From Actinomycetota bacterium (lineage in GTDB: Bacteria > Actinomycetota > Thermoleophilia > Gaiellales > Gaiellaceae): DNA of 13,360 nucleotides. The stretch is taken from contig VAXA01000293.1 in assembly GCA_005883365.1 (NCBI GenBank), forward strand, positions 1 through 13,360. The letters run 5' to 3'. The position numbers and the translations under genes are program-made. Shown one piece after another: positions 2,102 to 12,736 of this stretch. Position 1 is the first letter of the stretch. Every line of letters begins with the position of its first letter. Below the pieces are notes generated by a model. That model did no database searches. It was not told the origin of the DNA and was given only the letters and a program-made list of their open reading frames with translations.

Positions 2102-5100
2102 CTAGGAGCCGAAGAAGCCGAACGCCTTCTGGACGAGGCTGGCCTTGTCGGCCGCCGTTCCGTACGCCTCCAGCGGGAAGGCGAGGAAGACGACCTTGTA
2201 CCCGTCGCTGTAGCTGAGCGCGTCGGGCTGCGAGGCGTCGTCGGTAAAGATCGCCTGCGCGGTGCCGTTGGGCGTGATCTCGTCCTCGAACGCCGCCCCG
2301 AGAACGGTGTGGTCGATCGAGATATCGCCGATCCCGTTGGTCAGCGTGCCGGTGACACTGTGCACGGCCGAGGTCGGCTTGTCGTTCTGCGCCTCCGACC
2401 CATCCCAGGTGATGTGGATGTAGTCGGAGAAGAACGGCGCCTGGCCGGCCGCTTGGTCGAGGATGTCCTGGCCGGACATCAACAGGTGCCCGCCGCCGTC
2501 GAGGAAGTTCTCCAGCTCCGGCTCGTACGGCCCCACCGGATCCGGATAGCTGTTCCCCGTGAACCAGACCACGCTGTTGAAGTCCAGCAGGAACGGCTGC
2601 GGAAGTGTCGCCCCGTCGGCCTTCAGATCCCAGACCTGGAACGGGATGCCCGCCGCCGTCAGCGCGTCCTTGTAGGACTGCTGGACGTCCGGAGCGTTGT
2701 TGTCGTTGTCGACGAGCAGCGCGTCGTTCGGGCCGACGCCGATCGTCTTCACGGTTCCGCTGGCCGAGACCGTCGAGTCGTTGGTCGACGTCGCGGTCAC
2801 CGTCGCGATGCTGCTTCCGGAGGCTCCACTGTCGATGTGGACGCGGACGCAGACGTCCGTCGAGTCGCCCGACGCTACCTGCGGCGTCGTGCCGGACGCC
2901 AGCGGCGTCGCGCACGTCGAGTCGAGGAAGCTGACGGCGAACCCGGTGGCCGACCCCGACGACGTCATGACGTACGTGTCGTCGTTGAAGCCACGGTTCG
3001 TCACCATCACGTGGTAGTCGACGTCGACCGGTCCCTTGCCGCCGTTCGACTGCGTCGCCGGAGCGAGGCTCACCGAGTACGGAGGCGCGAGCGGCGAGAC
3101 GAACGGGGAGCCCGTGGTCCCGACGCCCTCGTTGGAGGTGACCGTGACACCGTCGTTGACGATCGACGTGAAGCCCTTCTTGGCGGGGGTGTTCACCGTC
3201 ACGGAGAAGTGCACCTGGACGTTTCCGCCGGCCGGAACCGTCAGCCCGCTCCAGGTCGCCGTGCCGCCCAAGACCGTGCCGCCGTCCTGCGCAACGGCGT
3301 TGCCGGTGTTGGCCGGGACGGGATCGGTGATCGTGACACCGGTCGCTTCGACGTTGCCGATGTTCCTCAGCGTCAGCGTGTAGTCGATCGTGCTTCCCGG
3401 CCCGATCGGCTTGCCGGCATCAGACGTCGACTCGTCGAAGGCGGGAACCGACAGGTTGTCGTTCAGCTCCCATGCTGAACGCCCGTACGTGCCCGCGGCG
3501 AGCGTTCGCACGCCCGGCTGCGACGGATCGAGGTTGAGCTGCCCGATGGTGACGTCGGGAAGGCCCGTGCCGAGCTGGCCCCAGGTCGTCCCACCGTCGT
3601 AGGTGACGAAGTTGCCGACATCGGTGCCCGCGTACAGCGTGTTCGGGTACGAGGGGTCGAGCACGACCGAGTTGACCGGCACGTCAGGCAGGTTGCCCGA
3701 GATGTTCGTCCACTTCTGGCCGCCGTTGGTCGTCTTGAACACGTGTCCCGGCTGGCCGACCGTGCCCGCGTTGAACCCGTCGAACGCAACGTACGCGATC
3801 CGGTAGTTGCTCCGGTCGACGGCGATGCTCGAGACCGGGCGTCCGGGCAGGTTGCCGGTGACGTCTCTCCAGGCCGGGTTGTCGCTCGTCTTCGCGTCCG
3901 GGCTGAGATGGACGAGGCCCTCCTCGGAGCCCGTGTAGACCGCTTGGCCCCCACCGATGCCAATCGCGGAGATGGTGCAGCCGCGGCCGCCGTTCGGTGC
4001 CCCACCCGTGCAGCCGCTCGTCAGGTCGCCGCTGATCGGCTTCCAGGTGACGTCGGCCGCCGCGGGCGCCTTGGCGTTGTCTGTGCGATACAGGCGATAC
4101 GTGCCGAGGAAGAGCTGATTCGGATTGTCCTGGTTCATCACCCAGGGCGTGTAGAACTCGGACCGGTCGCTGAGGTTGATGCCGTTCCGGATGTACTGGT
4201 TGGAGAAGAAGCAGAACCCGCCACAGGCCGGGTTGTCACGGTATGGCGAGATGCCGTAGTAGGTGCCGTAGATGTAGCTCGAATCCGTCGGGTCGACCAT
4301 GACCTGGCCGCCGTCACCACTGAACAGGTCGAACCAGCTCAGGGCCTGAGTCGAGCCCAAGTCGGTCCCGAAGGTGTGCTCGGTGCCGTTGTCCTGGCTG
4401 CCGCCCCAGACATAGGACGGCGTCTGTGGATTGGTCGCGATGCTCGTGAACGTCGTGGTCGAGAGCGACCTGTTGAGGTCCTGCCAGTCGACGGCGGAGA
4501 GCGGAGTAGAGGTGCTGGACCGCCCGCCGAGGTCCGTGCTGTACCAGACGCCGCCGTCCGAGCCGATCATCACGTGCTGCGTGTTCGCCGGGTCGAACGC
4601 GACCGCGTGGAAGTCCGGATGCTGGTCGTAGCCGAGGTTCGTCCAGGTCTGACCACCATCGGTCGAGCGGAAGATCCCGCCCGCTCCGTGCGCGTAGTCA
4701 TAGACGCCCCCTGCGAACACGACGTCGGGGTTCGTCGGATCGGCCTCGATCACGTTGTCGTAGAAGCACTGGCCGGCGCAGTAGCCCGAGACGTTCTCCT
4801 TGTTGAATGTCCCGTTGGGATCGGGCTGGCTGAGTTGGCTCCAGCTGCCACCAGCGTTGGTCGACTTGAAGACCTCGGACTGGTGGTACGTGCCATCGTT
4901 GCCGTACCAGTCGAAGCCGGCGTAGAGCGTCGCCTGCGACTGACTGGCGGGATGCGAGAGAGAGATCGAGAAGCGCGTCAGGCCGGCTGCGTAGTTCGCG
5001 TTCGCCGGCAGCCCGTTCATGATCGTCTTCCAGCTGGCGCCGCCGTTGGTGCTCTTGTAGATGGCGTCGTGCCAGAACGAGGCGTATAGGTCCCCGTTCT

Positions 5101-6103
5101 GCGGGTCGAGCTCCAGGTCTGTGGCACCGTTCGTTCCCTGCGGTGCCTGCTTGAGCAGTGACCAGGTCGCACCGCCGTCGGTCGACTCCCAGATGCCGAA
5201 GCGAGAGTGCTGCACCGGCGAGGTGCGGCGCACGCCGCCACGGCCTCGGAGGGTCGCGGCGTAGAGATGGTTTGCGTTGCTCGGGTCGACGACGATCCGC
5301 GAGATGGACACGCCGTAGAAGTAGTCACCCGAGACGTGGCTCCACGTGTTGCCGCCGTCGGTCGACTTGAGGATGCCGTTGCCGAAGTAGCTGTCGCCCG
5401 AGAGGGCGCCCTCGCCGGTCCCCGCGTAGACCACGTTGTCGTCCGACGGGGCGACTGCGAGCGCCCCGATGTGGAGCGAGGGCATGTTGTCGGTCTTCGG
5501 AACCCAACTCGTTCCGTTCCAGACCCAGATCCCGCCCCCGGCGGCGCCGAGGATGCGCGTGCCGTCCTGGCGGATCGCCAGCGCGCCGACCCGGCCGCTG
5601 ACGCGGATGACGGTGCCCGAGTCACGCGTGGGCTGTCTCAGGCCACTCGGCCCGATCGGGGACCACGCATCGGCAAACGTCGTCGGCGTGGAGGGCGAAA
5701 GGCTGCGGCGATGTCCCAGCTTCTTGCCCTGGAGCGCCGCCTGAGCGCGAAGAGCGCCGGCCTGGCTGATGTCGAGCGGAGTGCTGCCCGCAGTGCGGCG
5801 ATCGCTGAAGTACTGATCGCGCTGCAGGATCAGGCTTCCTTCGTCGCCACCCTCGCCGCTGCGGTCGTCGGCAAGTGGCTGCTTGCCGAACTCGCTGCTC
5901 ACCAAGGGCTTCGATCCCGGCCGCTTGGTGGGAAAGCCCCCGAGGACGGCGAACGCCGTTCCGCCGCCGACTGCCGCGAAGACGGCTACGGCAAGGCCGA
6001 CGACGAGCCAGCGCGGGCGGCTCTCTACAAACTTCTTCGCCCTGCCTTTGGCGGCTTTCGCCGACGAGGCAAGGCCGAGCAAGCCGAGCTTGCGATACCT
6101 CAT
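2102..6103 (-). CDS. Large exported/membrane-anchored BNR (Asp-box) beta-propeller protein with DUF11-like domains
   Basis: A 1333-residue extracytoplasmic protein of unknown specific role. The N-terminus is strongly basic (residues 1-30), followed by a hydrophobic segment (about 31-57) that acts as signal or membrane anchor. Residues about 145-880 form one or two beta-propellers with Asp-box/BNR repeats: KSTDGGNTW (246), ESTDGGATW (306), KSTNGGASW (350), KSTNAGGSW (413), RSTDGGQTW (479), KTTNGGQKW (790) and a YDGGTTW variant (835). A DUF11-like domain follows at about 895-1005 (IDYTLTLRNIGNVEATGV), then a second Ig-like domain (about 1008-1120). The C-terminal alpha/beta domain (about 1126-1333) begins ALLVDNDNN and contains FLDGGGHLLMSGQD, as in ThuA/amidotransferase-like folds. 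BNR propellers occur in sortilin-type proteins and in glycosidases; no sialidase FRIP motif is seen, so enzymatic activity is not claimed. The ATG has a strong ribosome site (AGGGGGAG, 8 nt upstream). Convergent with lipA. Confidence 0.92.
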   Translation of the reverse strand: MRYRKLGLLGLASSAKAAKGRAKKFVESRPRWLVVGLAVAVFAAVGGGTAFAVLGGFPTKRPGSKPLVSSEFGKQPLADDRSGEGGDEGSLILQRDQYFSDRRTAGSTPLDISQAGALRAQAALQGKKLGHRRSLSPSTPTTFADAWSPIGPSGLRQPTRDSGTVIRVSGRVGALAIRQDGTRILGAAGGGIWVWNGTSWVPKTDNMPSLHIGALAVAPSDDNVVYAGTGEGALSGDSYFGNGILKSTDGGNTWSHVSGDYFYGVSISRIVVDPSNANHLYAATLRGRGGVRRTSPVQHSRFGIWESTDGGATWSLLKQAPQGTNGATDLELDPQNGDLYASFWHDAIYKSTNGGASWKTIMNGLPANANYAAGLTRFSISLSHPASQSQATLYAGFDWYGNDGTYHQSEVFKSTNAGGSWSQLSQPDPNGTFNKENVSGYCAGQCFYDNVIEADPTNPDVVFAGGVYDYAHGAGGIFRSTDGGQTWTNLGYDQHPDFHAVAFDPANTQHVMIGSDGGVWYSTDLGGRSSTSTPLSAVDWQDLNRSLSTTTFTSIATNPQTPSYVWGGSQDNGTEHTFGTDLGSTQALSWFDLFSGDGGQVMVDPTDSSYIYGTYYGISPYRDNPACGGFCFFSNQYIRNGINLSDRSEFYTPWVMNQDNPNQLFLGTYRLYRTDNAKAPAAADVTWKPISGDLTSGCTGGAPNGGRGCTISAIGIGGGQAVYTGSEEGLVHLSPDAKTSDNPAWRDVTGNLPGRPVSSIAVDRSNYRIAYVAFDGFNAGTVGQPGHVFKTTNGGQKWTNISGNLPDVPVNSVVLDPSYPNTLYAGTDVGNFVTYDGGTTWGQLGTGLPDVTIGQLNLDPSQPGVRTLAAGTYGRSAWELNDNLSVPAFDESTSDAGKPIGPGSTIDYTLTLRNIGNVEATGVTITDPVPANTGNAVAQDGGTVLGGTATWSGLTVPAGGNVQVHFSVTVNTPAKKGFTSIVNDGVTVTSNEGVGTTGSPFVSPLAPPYSVSLAPATQSNGGKGPVDVDYHVMVTNRGFNDDTYVMTSSGSATGFAVSFLDSTCATPLASGTTPQVASGDSTDVCVRVHIDSGASGSSIATVTATSTNDSTVSASGTVKTIGVGPNDALLVDNDNNAPDVQQSYKDALTAAGIPFQVWDLKADGATLPQPFLLDFNSVVWFTGNSYPDPVGPYEPELENFLDGGGHLLMSGQDILDQAAGQAPFFSDYIHITWDGSEAQNDKPTSAVHSVTGTLTNGIGDISIDHTVLGAAFEDEITPNGTAQAIFTDDASQPDALSYSDGYKVVFLAFPLEAYGTAADKASLVQKAFGFFGS

Positions 6104-6670: not shown

Positions 6671-8011
6671 TCAGGTGCCGCTGTGGTGCGGCTTCGCCAT
6701 CTTGCGGTAGTCGAGCGCCTCGTCGAGGATGGAGTCCTCGACGCCCTTCTCGCGCGCGACCTCGCGCAGGGAGCGGCCGGAGGCGGCGGCCTCCTTGACG
6801 ATCTCGCTCGCGCGGTCGTAGCCGATGTACGGGTTGAGCGCGGTCGCGGCAGCGAGTGTCAGCTCGGCGTAGCGCTCGCAGTTCTCGCGGTTCGCCTCGA
6901 TCCCGTCCACGCACTTCTCGGCGAAGAGCCGGCACGCGCTCGCAAGAAGCTTCACCGAGTCGAGGATGTTGCGTGCGAGGAGCGGCACGAAGACGTTGAG
7001 CTCGAAATGCCCCTGCATGCCGCCGATCGTGATCGCAGTGTCGTTGCCGATCACCTGGGCGGCGACCTGCGTCACGACCTCCGGCATCACCGGGTTCACC
7101 TTGCCGGGCATGATCGAGCTGCCCTTCTGGAGCTCCGGCAGCGCGATCTCGGCGAGGCCGGCGCGCGGGCCGGAGCCGAGGAAGCGGATGTCGTTCGCGA
7201 CCTTCGTGAGCGAGACGGCCACGGTCTTGAGCGCCCCCGACGCCTCGACGATCCCGTCGCGCGCCGCCTGCGCCTCGAACGGATCGGCCGGCGCCGAGAT
7301 CTCGAGCCCGGTCTCGCGCGCCAGCAGCTCGCGAACGCGCGGCGCGAACTCCGGATGCGTGTTGAGGCCGGTCCCGGTCGCGGTGCCCCCGAGCGGGATC
7401 TGCCCAAGCCGGGGCAACGCGCCGCGGACCCGCTCGACTCCCTGCCGCACCTGCGCGGCGTAGCCCGCGAACTCCTGGCCGAGCATGACCGGGACGGCAT
7501 CCATCCAGTGCGTCCGCCCAGACTTGACGACGTCGTCGAACTCCCGCGCCTTCGCCTCGAGCGACGTGGCGAGCTGCTCGAGCGCCGGCAGCAGGTCGTT
7601 CACGATCTCGTCGAGCGCCGCGAGGTGGACGGCCGACGGGAAGACGTCGTTCGACGACTGGCCCATGTTGACGTCGTCGTTCGGGTGGACGTCGTCTCCC
7701 GCGAGCGTCGCGATCACCTCGTTCGCATTCATGTTCGACGAGGTGCCGGAGCCCGTCTGGAAGACGTCGATCGGGAACTGGTCGTCGAGCGCCCCGTCCG
7801 CAATCCTCGCGGCGGCTGCCGCGATCCGCTCAGCCCTGTCGGCGTCGAGCAGGCCGAGCTCCGCGTTGACCTGTGCCGCAGCACCCTTGATCCGACCGAG
7901 CCAGCGCGCGACCGGGGGCGGGATCGGCTCGCCGGAAACGGGGAAGTTCGCGACGGCCTTCGCGGTCTCGCCGCCCCAGAGCTCTTGGCGCTCCTCGGCC
8001 TTCGCCATCAC
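6671..8011 (-). CDS. fumC: Class II fumarate hydratase, complete copy
   Basis: Fumarase of the TCA cycle, reversibly hydrating fumarate to L-malate as an iron-independent homotetramer. At 446 aa the length is close to the usual 460. Conserved elements in order: [14 protein letters not shown] (86-99), [15 protein letters not shown] (108-122), GRTHWMDA with H168 (165-172), TGTGLNTHP (212-220), and the superfamily signature GSSIMPGKVNP (297-307) with the catalytic serine loop and K304/N306. The annotated start is GTG (8011) followed at once by ATG (8008); no Shine-Dalgarno precedes either, and a TACACT hexamer 5 nt upstream of the GTG suggests leaderless translation. This is the only complete fumC in the window: two 5'-end copies lie upstream at 8417-8904 and 9785-10364. 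It differs from both at residues D58 and D106, which are G and Y in the fragments. Confidence 0.96.
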   Translation of the reverse strand: MMAKAEERQELWGGETAKAVANFPVSGEPIPPPVARWLGRIKGAAAQVNAELGLLDADRAERIAAAAARIADGALDDQFPIDVFQTGSGTSSNMNANEVIATLAGDDVHPNDDVNMGQSSNDVFPSAVHLAALDEIVNDLLPALEQLATSLEAKAREFDDVVKSGRTHWMDAVPVMLGQEFAGYAAQVRQGVERVRGALPRLGQIPLGGTATGTGLNTHPEFAPRVRELLARETGLEISAPADPFEAQAARDGIVEASGALKTVAVSLTKVANDIRFLGSGPRAGLAEIALPELQKGSSIMPGKVNPVMPEVVTQVAAQVIGNDTAITIGGMQGHFELNVFVPLLARNILDSVKLLASACRLFAEKCVDGIEANRENCERYAELTLAAATALNPYIGYDRASEIVKEAAASGRSLREVAREKGVEDSILDEALDYRKMAKPHHSGT

Positions 8012-8016
8012 TGCCG

Positions 8017-8022
8017 AGTGTA
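8017..8022 (-). promoter_or_regulatory. Candidate -10 element of fumC (leaderless)
   Basis: Read on the minus strand, TACACT lies 5 nt before the GTG and 8 nt before the ATG of fumC, the spacing expected when transcription starts on the initiation codon. No clear -35 is present. The same hexamer is repeated at 8910-8915 and 10370-10375 before the two fumC fragments, so those could also be transcribed. Inference from spacing and the lack of a ribosome site. Confidence 0.4.
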
Positions 8023-8059
8023 GGGAAGTGCAGGAGGACGACGCTGCGGGGAGCGGAAA

Positions 8060-8260
8060 CTACGCGACCGACGGGAGGCGCCGCGCGGCGTGCCGCCGCT
8101 CGCGCGGCTCACGACGCTCAGCCGCGGTCAGCTCGAGCACGGGCGTCCACCCGAGGTAGCCGCACTCCGGGCACTCGGGCGACTCGAAGTGCTTGAAGCG
8201 GTCACGACGGGCGACGCGGGTGGTGCGGCAGTGGAGACATTCGACGACGAGAGACTCCAT
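8060..8260 (-). CDS. Small zinc-ribbon protein, copy A
   Basis: A 66-residue protein with two CXXC knuckles: C8/C11 (ECLHCRTT) and C30/C33 (PECPECGYLGW), the layout of a single zinc ribbon. The C-terminal third is rich in arginine and glutamate (ERREPRERRHAARR). I recognise the general type (small conserved actinobacterial zinc-ribbon peptide) but know no function; nucleic-acid or protein binding is possible. It lies 48 bp upstream of fumC and downstream of reductase sequence on the same strand, so it was probably co-transcribed with them. Copy A has A46 where copies B and C have E46 (one base, position 8124). The ATG start gives a compact protein beginning just before the first knuckle. Confidence 0.82.
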   Translation of the reverse strand: MESLVVECLHCRTTRVARRDRFKHFESPECPECGYLGWTPVLELTAAERREPRERRHAARRLPSVA

Positions 8261-8296
8261 GCCCGGTCCATCGGCGTCCGGGCGCCGGCCCGATGT

Positions 8297-8310
8297 CCCC
8301 CGATCGGGGG
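8297..8310. repeat. 14-bp palindrome after the reductase 3' end, copy A
   Basis: CCCCCGATCGGGGG is a perfect palindrome able to form a 5-bp GC stem with a GATC loop. It sits 4 bp beyond the reductase stop codon and 36 bp before the zinc-ribbon start. It recurs at 9190-9203 and 10650-10663. It could be an attenuator or processing site between the two genes, or an operator. No T-run follows. Confidence 0.5.
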
Positions 8311-8314
8311 CTAC

Positions 8315-8416
8315 CTACGACGTCTTGCCGCTGGCGATGCGCTCGGCGGCGGCGAGCAGCTCGTCCCACGAGCACAGCTTGATGCGCGGCCGGCCGGTCT
8401 TCTCGCCGGCGGCGCG
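8315..8416 (-). pseudogene. Ferredoxin-NADP reductase remnant, last 33 codons (copy A)
   Basis: This matches the 3' end of the complete reductase gene at 10668-11990 (its positions 10668-10769), encoding the end of the protein ([20 protein letters not shown]...) and its stop codon. It is cut at 8416/8417, where the sequence switches without overlap to fumC. It lacks all FAD- and NADP-binding parts and any start, so it cannot be a working gene. It is the right-hand part of the first 893-bp repeat unit. Confidence 0.92.
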
Positions 8417-8904
8417 TTGACGACGTCGTCGAACTCCCGCGCCTTCGCCTCGAGCGACGTGGCGAGCTGCTCGAGCGCCGGCAGCAGGTCGTTCACGATC
8501 TCGTCGAGCGCCGCGAGGTGGACGGCCGACGGGAAGACGTCGTTCGACGACTGGCCCATGTTGACGTCGTCGTTCGGGTGGACGTCGTATCCCGCGAGCG
8601 TCGCGATCACCTCGTTCGCATTCATGTTCGACGAGGTGCCGGAGCCCGTCTGGAAGACGTCGATCGGGAACTGGTCGTCGAGCGCCCCGTCCGCAATCCT
8701 CGCGGCGGCTGCCGCGATCCGCTCAGCCCTACCGGCGTCGAGCAGGCCGAGCTCCGCGTTGACCTGTGCCGCAGCACCCTTGATCCGACCGAGCCAGCGC
8801 GCGACCGGGGGCGGGATCGGCTCGCCGGAAACGGGGAAGTTCGCGACGGCCTTCGCGGTCTCGCCGCCCCAGAGCTCTTGGCGCTCCTCGGCCTTCGCCA
8901 TCAC
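8417..8904 (-). pseudogene. fumC fragment, 5' 162 codons (copy B)
   Basis: Equivalent to 7524-8011 with the start codon and its upstream 48 bp retained. The frame runs past the joint into reductase sequence read in the wrong frame and stops at 8311, predicting a 197-residue chimera: FumC 1-162 plus about 35 arginine/alanine/serine-rich residues. H168 and the GSSIMPGKVNP loop are lost, so fumarase activity is excluded. It carries G58 and Y106, unlike the intact gene. Confidence 0.92.
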
Positions 8905-8952
8905 TGCCGAGTGTAGGGAAGTGCAGGAGGACGACGCTGCGGGGAGCGGAAA

Positions 8953-9153
8953 CTACGCGACCGACGGGAGGCGCCGCGCGGCGTGCCGCCGCTCGCGCGG
9001 CTCACGACGCTCAGCCTCGGTCAGCTCGAGCACGGGCGTCCACCCGAGGTAGCCGCACTCCGGGCACTCGGGCGACTCGAAGTGCTTGAAGCGGTCACGA
9101 CGGGCGACGCGGGTGGTGCGGCAGTGGAGACATTCGACGACGAGAGACTCCAT
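8953..9153 (-). CDS. Small zinc-ribbon protein, copy B
   Basis: Intact 66-codon duplicate of 8060-8260, offset by 893 bp. All four zinc-ligand cysteines (C8, C11, C30, C33) are kept, and it differs from copy A only by E46 in place of A46. Its flanks are a truncated fumC downstream and a truncated reductase upstream, so its original promoter upstream of the reductase is absent from this unit unless transcription reads through from copy C. Confidence 0.78.
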   Translation of the reverse strand: MESLVVECLHCRTTRVARRDRFKHFESPECPECGYLGWTPVLELTEAERREPRERRHAARRLPSVA

Positions 9154-9189
9154 GCCCGGTCCATCGGCGTCCGGGCGCCGGCCCGATGT

Positions 9190-9203
9190 CCCCCGATCGG
9201 GGG
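9190..9203. repeat. 14-bp palindrome, copy B
   Basis: Second occurrence of CCCCCGATCGGGGG between the reductase stop codon and the zinc-ribbon gene, carried by the duplication. Confidence 0.5.
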
Positions 9204-9207
9204 CTAC

Positions 9208-9784
9208 CTACGACGTCTTGCCGCTGGCGATGCGCTCGGCGGCGGCGAGCAGCTCGTCCCACGAGCACAGCTTGATGCGCGGCCGGCCGGTCTTCTCGCC
9301 GGCGGCGCGCTCGGCCTCGTCGATCGCGGTCCAGCCGGAGTACTCGACGACGCGGACGCCGCGCTCGGCCAGCAGTGCGTCGACGGCTGCAGCGCTCGCG
9401 TCCGGCTTCGGCTGCAAGCGGCCGGCCACTGCGTCCTCGAGCAGGAGCACCACGGTCTCGGTCGCGTCTTTCTTGTTCGTGCCGATGACGCCGGTCGGGC
9501 CGCGCTTGATCCAGCCGGCGGAGTAGACGCCGGGCTCCACGCGACCACCCTCGTTCGGGATCGTCCCGGTCTTGGCGTCGAAGACGACGCCTGGAAGCTC
9601 GACACCGTGGTAGCCGACGCTGCGGAAGACGAGCCCGCATGCAAGCGTCTCGCGCTCCTCCGTCGGCACGGCGCGTTCGTTCTCGTCGAGCTCGTTGCGG
9701 ACGAGCTCGATCCCCTCGACCCGCTCCTTGCCGAGAATCGCTATGGGCGACTGAAAGAAGCGAAAGACGACGCGCCGCGGCCTG
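9208..9784 (-). pseudogene. Ferredoxin-NADP reductase remnant, last ~191 codons (copy B)
   Basis: Equivalent to 10668-11244 of the intact gene; it encodes about residues 250-440 including GWIKRGPTGVIGTNKKD. The N-terminal FAD-binding GSGPAG and NADP-binding GNGNVA regions are missing. It begins at the joint 9784/9785, where fumC sequence precedes it on the minus strand in a different frame, so no normal start exists; an in-frame GTG at 9669 could only yield a 153-residue piece. Two bases differ from the intact copy: 9683 (leucine/arginine difference on the antisense reading, glutamate versus alanine in the protein at about residue 284) and 9736. Confidence 0.92.
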
Positions 9785-10364
9785 GCTCGACTCCCTGCCG
9801 CACCTGCGCGGCGTAGCCCGCGAACTCCTGGCCGAGCATGACCGGGACGGCATCCATCCAGTGCGTCCGCCCAGACTTGACGACGTCGTCGAACTCCCGC
9901 GCCTTCGCCTCGAGCGACGTGGCGAGCTGCTCGAGCGCCGGCAGCAGGTCGTTCACGATCTCGTCGAGCGCCGCGAGGTGGACGGCCGACGGGAAGACGT
10001 CGTTCGACGACTGGCCCATGTTGACGTCGTCGTTCGGGTGGACGTCGTATCCCGCGAGCGTCGCGATCACCTCGTTCGCATTCATGTTCGACGAGGTGCC
10101 GGAGCCCGTCTGGAAGACGTCGATCGGGAACTGGTCGTCGAGCGCCCCGTCCGCAATCCTCGCGGCGGCTGCCGCGATCCGCTCAGCCCTACCGGCGTCG
10201 AGCAGGCCGAGCTCCGCGTTGACCTGTGCCGCAGCACCCTTGATCCGACCGAGCCAGCGCGCGACCGGGGGCGGGATCGGCTCGCCGGAAACGGGGAAGT
10301 TCGCGACGGCCTTCGCGGTCTCGCCGCCCCAGAGCTCTTGGCGCTCCTCGGCCTTCGCCATCAC
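9785..10364 (-). pseudogene. fumC fragment, 5' 193 codons (copy C)
   Basis: Equivalent to 7432-8011. It reaches FumC residue 193, so H168 (GRTHWMDA) is present, but the C-terminal two-thirds, including the GSSIMPGKVNP loop, are absent. The frame crosses the joint into reductase sequence in the wrong frame and ends at 9741, predicting a 207-residue product with a 14-residue foreign tail. Because class II fumarase active sites are built from three subunits and several regions, activity is not expected. The start codon and candidate -10 element are retained. Confidence 0.92.
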
Positions 10365-10412
10365 TGCCGAGTGTAGGGAAGTGCAGGAGGACGACGCTGC
10401 GGGGAGCGGAAA

Positions 10413-10613
10413 CTACGCGACCGACGGGAGGCGCCGCGCGGCGTGCCGCCGCTCGCGCGGCTCACGACGCTCAGCCTCGGTCAGCTCGAGCACGGGCGTC
10501 CACCCGAGGTAGCCGCACTCCGGGCACTCGGGCGACTCGAAGTGCTTGAAGCGGTCACGACGGGCGACGCGGGTGGTGCGGCAGTGGAGACATTCGACGA
10601 CGAGAGACTCCAT
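10413..10613 (-). CDS. Small zinc-ribbon protein, copy C
   Basis: Third intact 66-codon copy, identical to copy B. It is the only one preceded on its strand by the complete reductase gene (54 bp gap), so this unit keeps the presumed ancestral upstream context: marR, reductase, zinc ribbon. Two CXXC pairs as in copy A. Function unknown. Confidence 0.82.
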   Translation of the reverse strand: MESLVVECLHCRTTRVARRDRFKHFESPECPECGYLGWTPVLELTEAERREPRERRHAARRLPSVA

Positions 10614-10649
10614 GCCCGGTCCATCGGCGTCCGGGCGCCGGCCCGATGT

Positions 10650-10663
10650 CCCCCGATCGGGGG
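10650..10663. repeat. 14-bp palindrome, copy C
   Basis: Third CCCCCGATCGGGGG, here 4 bp after the stop codon of the intact reductase. This is the context in which any function (terminator, attenuator or operator) would have been selected. Confidence 0.5.
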
Positions 10664-10667
10664 CTAC

Positions 10668-11990
10668 CTACGACGTCTTGCCGCTGGCGATGCGCTCGGC
10701 GGCGGCGAGCAGCTCGTCCCACGAGCACAGCTTGATGCGCGGCCGGCCGGTCTTCTCGCCGGCGGCGCGCTCGGCCTCGTCGATCGCGGTCCAGCCGGAG
10801 TACTCGACGACGCGGACGCCGCGCTCGGCCAGCAGTGCGTCGACGGCTGCAGCGCTCGCGTCCGGCTTCGGCTGCAAGCGGCCGGCCACTGCGTCCTCGA
10901 GCAGGAGCACCACGGTCTCGGTCGCGTCTTTCTTGTTCGTGCCGATGACGCCGGTCGGGCCGCGCTTGATCCAGCCGGCGGAGTAGACGCCGGGCTCCAC
11001 GCGACCACCCTCGTTCGGGATCGTCCCGGTCTTGGCGTCGAAGACGACGCCTGGAAGCTCGACACCGTGGTAGCCGACGCTGCGGAAGACGAGCCCGCAT
11101 GCAAGCGTCTCGCGCTCCTCCGTCGGCACGGCGCGTTCGTTCGCGTCGAGCTCGTTGCGGACGAGCTCGATCCCCTCGACCCGCTCCTTGCCGAGGATCG
11201 CTATGGGCGACTGAAAGAAGCGAAAGACGACGCGCCGCGGCCTGCCCTGCGGCTCGCGCGCCGCGAACCCCTGCAGCACGGCGAAGTTGCGCTCGGCGTT
11301 CGTGCTCTTCGGCTGTGCCCCCTCGAGGTCGACCGGATCGACGACGACGTCGGCGCCGGCGAGCTCTCCCATCTCCTGCAGCTCGGGCGTCGTGAACGAG
11401 GCCTGGGCGGGGCCGCGCCGCCCGACGACGACGATCTCGCGGAGCGACGAATCGGCGATGGCCGCGATCGAGGCGTCCGTCGCATCCGTCGGCGCGAGCT
11501 CCTCGTGCGTGAGCGCGAGCATCCGCGCCACGTCGAGCGCCACGTTCCCGTTCCCGATCACGACGGCGCGCTCGACGGAGAGGTCGAAGTCGAGCTGCTG
11601 GAAATCGGGATGGCCGTTGTACCAGGCGACGAGCTCCGTGGCCGCCCACGAGCCCGGCAGGTCCTCGCCCGGGATGCCGAGCCGACGATCGGTCTGTGCG
11701 CCGACTGCATAGATGACGGCGTCGTAGAGCCGCACGAGGTCGGCGTGGTGGAGATCGCGACCCACCTCGACGTTGCCGAGGAAGCGGAAGCCGGGCTGCT
11801 CGGCGATGCGCTCGAACGCGCGCGACACCGACTTGAGCTTCGGATGGTCAGGAGCGACCCCGAGGCGGACGAGCCCCCACGGCGTCGGCAGCCGCTCGAG
11901 CATGTCGACCTCCGCGGGCGGGTCGGCGGACAGAAGCGCACCGGCGGCGTAGAAGCCCGCCGGGCCGGATCCGACGACGGCAACGCGCAT
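10668..11990 (-). CDS. Ferredoxin--NADP+ reductase, FprA/adrenodoxin-reductase type, complete
   Basis: Flavoprotein passing electrons between NADP(H) and ferredoxin in the cytoplasm, for example to supply cytochromes P450 or iron-sulfur enzymes. The 440 residues cover the whole fold: an FAD Rossmann motif VVGSGPAGFYAA (5-16), LERLPTPWGLVRLGVAPDHP (31-50, an FprA hallmark), YAVGAQ (94-99), an NADP Rossmann motif VIGNGNVALDVARML (144-158), VVGRRGP with R191/R192 positioned for the 2'-phosphate (188-194), and GWIKRGPTGVIGTNKKD (339-355), which closes the FAD site. This matches mycobacterial FprA and mitochondrial adrenodoxin reductase in plan. The ATG is 13 bp after the marR stop on the same strand, with no clear Shine-Dalgarno, suggesting translational coupling to marR. 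A zinc-ribbon gene follows 54 bp downstream. Its 3' part is duplicated twice to the left. Confidence 0.95.
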   Translation of the reverse strand: MRVAVVGSGPAGFYAAGALLSADPPAEVDMLERLPTPWGLVRLGVAPDHPKLKSVSRAFERIAEQPGFRFLGNVEVGRDLHHADLVRLYDAVIYAVGAQTDRRLGIPGEDLPGSWAATELVAWYNGHPDFQQLDFDLSVERAVVIGNGNVALDVARMLALTHEELAPTDATDASIAAIADSSLREIVVVGRRGPAQASFTTPELQEMGELAGADVVVDPVDLEGAQPKSTNAERNFAVLQGFAAREPQGRPRRVVFRFFQSPIAILGKERVEGIELVRNELDANERAVPTEERETLACGLVFRSVGYHGVELPGVVFDAKTGTIPNEGGRVEPGVYSAGWIKRGPTGVIGTNKKDATETVVLLLEDAVAGRLQPKPDASAAAVDALLAERGVRVVEYSGWTAIDEAERAAGEKTGRPRIKLCSWDELLAAAERIASGKTS

Positions 11991-12003: not shown

Positions 12004-12540
12004 CTAGTCGTGCTTTCCCGGATACCGGTCTTCGAGCGTGACCATCACACGGCGCAGGAGAGCATTGAGCTGTTCCTTCTCGCGGTCGGTCAGCGCCTCC
12101 GCGAGCAGCGCCTCCTTCTGGGCCTGGATTCCCATCGTCTGCTCGTGCTTCTTCCGCCCATTCTCCGTCAGCTCGACGAGGACGCTCCGCCGATCGGCCG
12201 GATCGCGCAGGCGGCGGACGAGGCCCTCCTTCTCGAGCGCGTCGAGCCGGCTCGTCATGGCGCCGCTCGTGAGGTCGGCACGGCGTGCGAGCTCGCCGGC
12301 CTTGCGGCGGTATGGCTTGCCCGCCCAGCGCAGCGCCGTGAGCACGTGCCAGTCGCTGACCGTGAGGCCGAGCTGGTCGAGCGTCTCGTCGTGCATCCGC
12401 TTGATGCGCCGGTTGATGCCGCCGATGCGGTCGACGATCCCCTCGACCGTCAGGTCGAGATCGGGCGGCAGGTCGGCGCCGATCTCCTCGAGGAAGCTGT
12501 CGACGTGGTCCCGCTCGCCGGTCTTCCTCGCTTTGGGCAC
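12004..12540 (-). CDS. MarR-family transcriptional regulator
   Basis: Winged-helix DNA-binding dimer that usually represses nearby genes until a ligand or oxidant is bound. With the GTG at 12540 as start the protein has 178 residues. The core is visible: LTVSDWHVLTALRW (about 60-73), the recognition helix region LTSGAMTSRLDALEKEGLVRR (90-110, broken by no gaps), and the wing DPADRRSVLVELT (113-125); the C-terminal helices are for dimerisation. I prefer GTG 12540 (AGGA 11 nt upstream) because the frame further upstream, with an ATG at 12603 and a TTG at 12621, runs through the palindromic operators and lacks family resemblance. The gene is 13 bp upstream of the reductase and divergent from the cupin-TPR gene. 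No cysteine is seen in the core, so an OhrR-like thiol switch is unlikely; the ligand is unknown. Confidence 0.9.
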   Translation of the reverse strand: MPKARKTGERDHVDSFLEEIGADLPPDLDLTVEGIVDRIGGINRRIKRMHDETLDQLGLTVSDWHVLTALRWAGKPYRRKAGELARRADLTSGAMTSRLDALEKEGLVRRLRDPADRRSVLVELTENGRKKHEQTMGIQAQKEALLAEALTDREKEQLNALLRRVMVTLEDRYPGKHD

Positions 12541-12563
12541 GTTCGAAGTGTTCCTGAAATTTC

Positions 12564-12608
12564 TCTTGACGTCAAGATAGCTCAAGTGGTAGTTTCTTGA
12601 CATCAAGA
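12564..12608. promoter_or_regulatory. Paired palindromic operators overlapping a divergent promoter region
   Basis: Two 14-bp sites lie 31 bp apart start to start, about three helical turns: TCTTGACGTCAAGA (12564-12577, perfect palindrome) and TCTTGACATCAAGA (12595-12608, one central mismatch). Both are followed by TA. On the plus strand TTGACG (12566-12571) and TAGTTT (12590-12595) form a -35/-10 pair with an 18-bp spacer, placing the transcription start in the second site. A MarR dimer bound at both would block the cupin-TPR promoter, and marR itself, whose GTG lies 24 bp to the left. Operator identity is inferred from symmetry and position. Confidence 0.7.
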
Positions 12609-12736
12609 TACTTGCCGCCAAGGAGGAGGCTCACCACGCACCCATCAGACCCCCAGTTCGCCCAGCTCGTCCATGAGGATCGCGCGGCGCAGCTTCGCGC
12701 CGCCGCGCTCCGCACCCAATCTTCGAGGAGGCCGCC

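Follow-up and report, generated by a model that had tools for sequence, protein, structure and literature searches.

Tandem duplications with short junctions are known from bacteria, where near-identical copies lie head to tail, short homology is found at the junction and the outer genes stay intact. Duplications can also originate from the assembly itself: false segmental duplications caused by haplotype mis-assembly were described for diploid genomes (Kelley and Salzberg 2010, PMC2864568), and heterotype false duplications, for which divergent haplotypes are kept as separate copies, were reported to result in false gene gains (abstract of Ko and others 2022, PMC9516828).

The window, i.e. 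the whole stretch of DNA analysed here, is an entire contig (C1; 13,360 bp) of a genome assembly from an uncultured bacterium that amounts to 2.15 Mb in 310 contigs and is 78% complete. It contains three repeated units of fumC, zinc-ribbon and reductase sequence which, judged from the sequence comparisons described below, very probably represent a false tandem duplication made by assembly and most likely exist in no chromosome. The relevant features are the following (the signature referred to is defined further below):

6671..8011, minus strand: fumC, complete fumarase/aspartase-type lyase gene at the left (Pfam Lyase_1 7.3e-97, FumaraseC_C 1.8e-17)
7432..8416, no strand: copy A, part of fumC, zinc-ribbon ORF 8060-8260 and the end of the reductase gene (985 bp, 4 differences to copy C)
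8416..8417, no strand: J1, joint of reductase and fumC, without common bases and without the 10+5 signature
8417..9784, no strand: copy B, fumC fragment (ORF 8311-8904), zinc-ribbon ORF 8953-9153 and reductase fragment (ORF 9208-9669), from alignment to A and C
9770-9784, no strand: J2 signature, 15 bp, of which 11 bp are common to the parents in register, followed by 4 bp that carry the bases of the left parent; fumC sequence from 9785 on
9785..11244, no strand: copy C, fumC fragment (ORF 9741-10364), zinc-ribbon ORF 10413-10613 and, as read from the left, the first part of the complete reductase gene, from alignment to A and B
8060-8260, 8953-9153 and 10413-10613, minus strand: zinc-ribbon ORFs of 66 aa (motif CxxC...CxxC)
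10668..11990, minus strand: complete FprA-type ferredoxin-NADP reductase gene at the right (PDB 1lqt, FprA, E 3.5e-136; Pfam Pyr_redox_2)
12004..12621, minus strand: MarR-family regulator gene in a conserved neighbourhood (Pfam MarR 6.9e-13), adjoining the reductase gene in four same-genus relatives

Within NCBIfam, fumC_II was identified as the best model for fumC (511.8 bits, below its cut-off of 664.75), and the best PDB matches of fumC are fumarate hydratases. The zinc-ribbon ORF of copy A matched neither Pfam nor NCBIfam, hence 'zinc ribbon' is to be taken as a reading of the motif. Elsewhere in the window (2102-6103, minus strand) a 1333-aa protein is encoded, which gave Pfam Sortilin-Vps10/BNR-type propeller and DUF11 matches.

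Self-comparison of the window confirmed the three copies together with their offsets of 893, 1460 and 2353 bp, and the joints at 8416/8417 (J1) and 9784/9785 (J2) were found to be exact as originally predicted. Copies A and B differ at four positions within 893 bp (7696, 7838, 7839 and 8124), A and C differ at the same four sites within 985 bp, and B and C differ at two positions within 1368 bp (9683 and 9736), with no difference between the latter two copies over the 1266 bp from 8417 to 9682. As identities of 99.5-99.9% over such lengths are far beyond chance, the copies are real in the letters of the contig.

Comparison with the relatives indicated on which side some of the differences arose. 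At site 7696 copy A possesses C, as do 10 of 10 relatives, and B and C possess A; at 7838 the G of copy A is found in 8 of 10 relatives and the A of B and C in none; at 7839 the T of copy A is found in 9 of 10 and the C of B and C in one. Thus, B and C share derived bases that are absent from A at three sites (7696, 7838 and 7839 in A coordinates), whereby the adjacent changes at 7838 and 7839 perhaps are one event. At site 8124, G in copy A is shared with two and T in B and C with four of the six relatives with an aligned base, one of these six bases being doubtful since the relative concerned (G008) has no zinc-ribbon match there. Concerning the sites at which B and C differ, T (copy B) is found in 3 and G (copy C) in 7 of 10 relatives at 9683, while at 9736 A (copy B) is found in one and G (copy C) in 9 of 10.

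The original prediction assumed a 1460-bp duplication, within whose left copy an 893-bp duplication then took place, a history which requires A and B to be sisters and which is contradicted by the derived bases shared between B and C: if A and B were the last to diverge, these bases could not be placed on any branch without gene conversion, and hence the nested history is unsupported. Gene conversion could rescue it, yet as an added assumption. The reverse order (893 bp first, then 1460 bp) was rejected because the start of C within fumC lies 92 bp to the left of that of B, and no order of events makes B and C sisters unless gene conversion is invoked. A real nested tandem amplification in the organism, which was the main history proposed, is favoured by the completeness of both the outer fumC and the outer reductase gene, and tandem duplications that have short homology or none at the junction do occur in bacteria; with base differences that group B and C against A, it is nevertheless considered very improbable, and further evidence against it comes from the relatives and from the remaining assembly. 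Two or three strain haplotypes, on the other hand, would account directly for the base differences and suit a pattern in which B and C depart from A at four sites and from each other at two, although gene conversion could mimic it. Two further origins of the copies were considered and rejected: homologous slippage, as the units are not flanked by any repeat long enough to be of use (none at J1 and solely an 11-bp word at J2), and copying by a mobile element, as a Pfam scan of 8 window proteins revealed no transposase and inverted repeats of at least 40 bp are absent.

Some part of the window is matched in 59 of the 61 genomes searched (own genome included). In four same-genus relatives (G014, G009, G005 and G006) marR, reductase, zinc ribbon and fumC are present once each and contiguous, which speaks against a real amplification. 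None of the 19 relative loci (L004-L022), all of which derive from other species, possesses the duplication. In the true locus, fumC, the zinc-ribbon ORF and the FprA-type reductase gene most likely occur once each. Variations of the neighbourhood were seen as well: in G011 the reductase gene is separated from the zinc-ribbon ORF by about 2 kb, in which a 631-aa ORF is located (L242 4062-5957, G011:C25) that may resemble secreted S53-type peptidases, and in G004, G007, G008, G010 and G015 fumC and the reductase gene adjoin each other without a zinc-ribbon match. The zinc-ribbon ORF adjoins fumC in several same-genus relatives and has no match in others.

The remaining assembly was sampled with 100 of the 310 contigs, taken as three number blocks (2-61, 150-169 and 290-309) and hence not as a random draw; 18 of these were wholly N, leaving 82 readable contigs with 640,619 bases. 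Considering direct pairs of at least 150 bp and at least 96% identity, adjacent near-identical direct duplications were identified in 7 of the 82 readable contigs (9 direct pairs, 221 to 2649 bp). The same script returned one match among 139 control loci (1,616,879 bases, some loci overlapping, e.g., L008, L023 and L242 from one contig), namely 0 of 20 for G011 (368,382 bases), 0 of 80 for the genome_contigs loci (769,331), 0 of 19 for the relative loci (79,166) and 1 of 20 for G033 (400,000). This sole match is a tandem array with a period of approximately 188 bp (L210 17419-18319, G033:C1), located in a relative represented by a single contig. Among the seven contigs, one (L124 9857-14393, G000:C23) shows a nested three-copy layout like that of the window, with offsets of 781, 2116 and 2897 bp. 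Alignment with 5 relative loci for L124 and 3 for L168 showed that what is duplicated in these two contigs is present there once. In an eighth contig an inverted pair of 639 bp with 99.4% identity was observed (L187 2448-3086 and 5334-5971, G000:C294). Moreover, the sample contains four pairs of overlapping contig ends (95.7-99.6%) that were left unmerged.

Inspection of the joints revealed a common signature, consisting of 10-12 bp common to both parents in exact register, then a block of 3-5 bp that departs from the right parent at 2-5 positions, and then the right parent itself. Apart from J1, all nine joints of duplications of at least 150 bp bear it (L115, L124 twice, L156, L167, L168, L174, L195 and J2). 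The common run starts 15 bp ahead of the last mismatch in seven joints and 14 bp ahead in two, and the bases of the block are those of the left parent wherever the left parent has a second copy, with one further difference in L167; for the second joint of L124 such a copy of the left parent is missing, so that the common run alone is shown. For comparison, random position pairs from the same contigs gave a run of at least 10 bp within 20 bp in 220 of 1,982,017 cases (1.1e-4). The earlier claim that the parents share no overlap at either joint holds literally, at the breakpoints themselves, and holds for J1, where the longest common run of the parents is 2 and the joint is blunt; it fails for J2, where the word ACGCGCCGCGG (11 bp) is present in both parents in exact register and stops 4 bases short of the joint. 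Microhomology employed in recombination abuts the breakpoint. Next to the breakpoint, J1 possesses none, and the 11 bp of J2 are set off from it by the 4-bp block, an arrangement other than that expected of a real duplication.

Along the deposited strand, the signature points in the same direction at all nine joints, which are distributed over eight contigs, and a test for its mirror form at nine joints, J1 among them, was negative throughout. If the direction were free, the agreement of eight contigs would have a probability of 1 in 128 by our own arithmetic. As a chromosomal process has no reason to follow the orientation of a contig, a signature tied to this orientation points to an artefact, and like structures across the assembly that share one software-like joint and one direction add to the evidence against a real amplification. 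To uphold a biological origin, one would have to assume that this lineage truly undergoes frequent strand-directed tandem duplication, which anneals about 10 bp, keeps a few mismatching bases and thereby amplifies numerous loci in nested form within a mixed population; this we regard as extremely improbable. Chimeras formed during library preparation or amplification (e.g., circularised or template-switched fragments) and subsequently trusted by the assembler are quite improbable as source of the joints. Circularised fragments would also yield head-to-tail joints, and the bluntness of J1 fits them; template switching is, however, not expected to extend an end with mismatches to the new template at its last 3-5 positions, and chimeras from a library show no preference for either orientation on the contig, yet the nine signature joints point one way.

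Taken together, recurrence within the same assembly, a common joint signature, its fixed direction and the single-copy relatives argue for false duplication by assembly. Of the two outcomes left open by the original prediction, a very recent event or an assembly product, the latter is thereby favoured, and the biological reading is probably not right. The findings combine recurrence exceeding that of the controls, joints tied to contig orientation (J1 being without the signature) and haplotype-like differences. We infer that a software step caused the joints and that a strain mixture was the source of the base differences. Co-existing strain haplotypes, about 0.5% apart, would yield assembled pieces covering the same stretch, which an assembly, scaffolding or gap-closing step would set head to tail instead of superimposing them. 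The pieces would be joined via a spurious, short overlap in which about 10 bases match, whereby the last few bases of the left piece would be kept; joints like those observed would result if the rule for overlaps allowed mismatches at the ends of pieces. At the level of listed entries, the literature search met no assembler joining rule of the 10+5 kind. The fragmentation of the assembly suggests short reads as source data, and the identity of B and C over 1266 bp, which exceeds what short reads or ordinary inserts resolve, counts in favour of an artefact as well.

Counted against an artefact are the blunt J1 and a 67-bp duplication in L163, both of which are without the 10+5 signature. Confidence in an artefact is lower for J1 alone than for the whole. 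One may take J1 as the product of a true and recent tandem duplication of 893 bp, which arose in a single strain as ends were joined without homology, and J2 alone as an assembly error; in favour of this, J1 differs from J2 and the eight joints elsewhere in having neither common run nor block. This option is nonetheless unlikely, as J1 and J2 reside in one contig of an assembly that carries such duplications in its sampled contigs, and as the bases that set A apart from B also set it apart from C, just as a haplotype switch would give. J1 presumably represents an error of the same general kind as J2.

Taken at face value, the contig would count as a recent amplification of a zinc-ribbon gene accompanied by truncated fumC paralogs; it should rather be taken as a warning, given that approximately one in twelve of the readable sampled contigs (7/82) carries a probably false duplication. 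The junction signature, with its 10-12 common bases, its retained mismatching block of 3-5 bp and its single direction, provides a test that requires sequence only and by which further genomes produced with the same pipeline could be checked for this error. The locus resembles the short-junction tandem duplications of bacteria in its near-identical head-to-tail copies, the short junction homology and the intact outer genes, but differs in that their homology abuts the breakpoint, whereas here a mismatching block of 3-5 bp intervenes and the direction follows the deposited contig strand. Applying the principle of haplotype-derived false duplication to the present contig would be an extension of the described cases. 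With the heterotype duplications (PMC9516828) the contig would share divergent haplotypes kept as separate copies, the differences being that those derive from vertebrate long-read assemblies and that the abstract of that report mentions no fixed joint signature. The cases of PMC2864568, as far as described there, concern diploid vertebrates and the placement of mate pairs; in the present case a bacterial metagenome bin is concerned, in which strains would take the place of alleles and the joints are gapless with a fixed 10+5 overlap.
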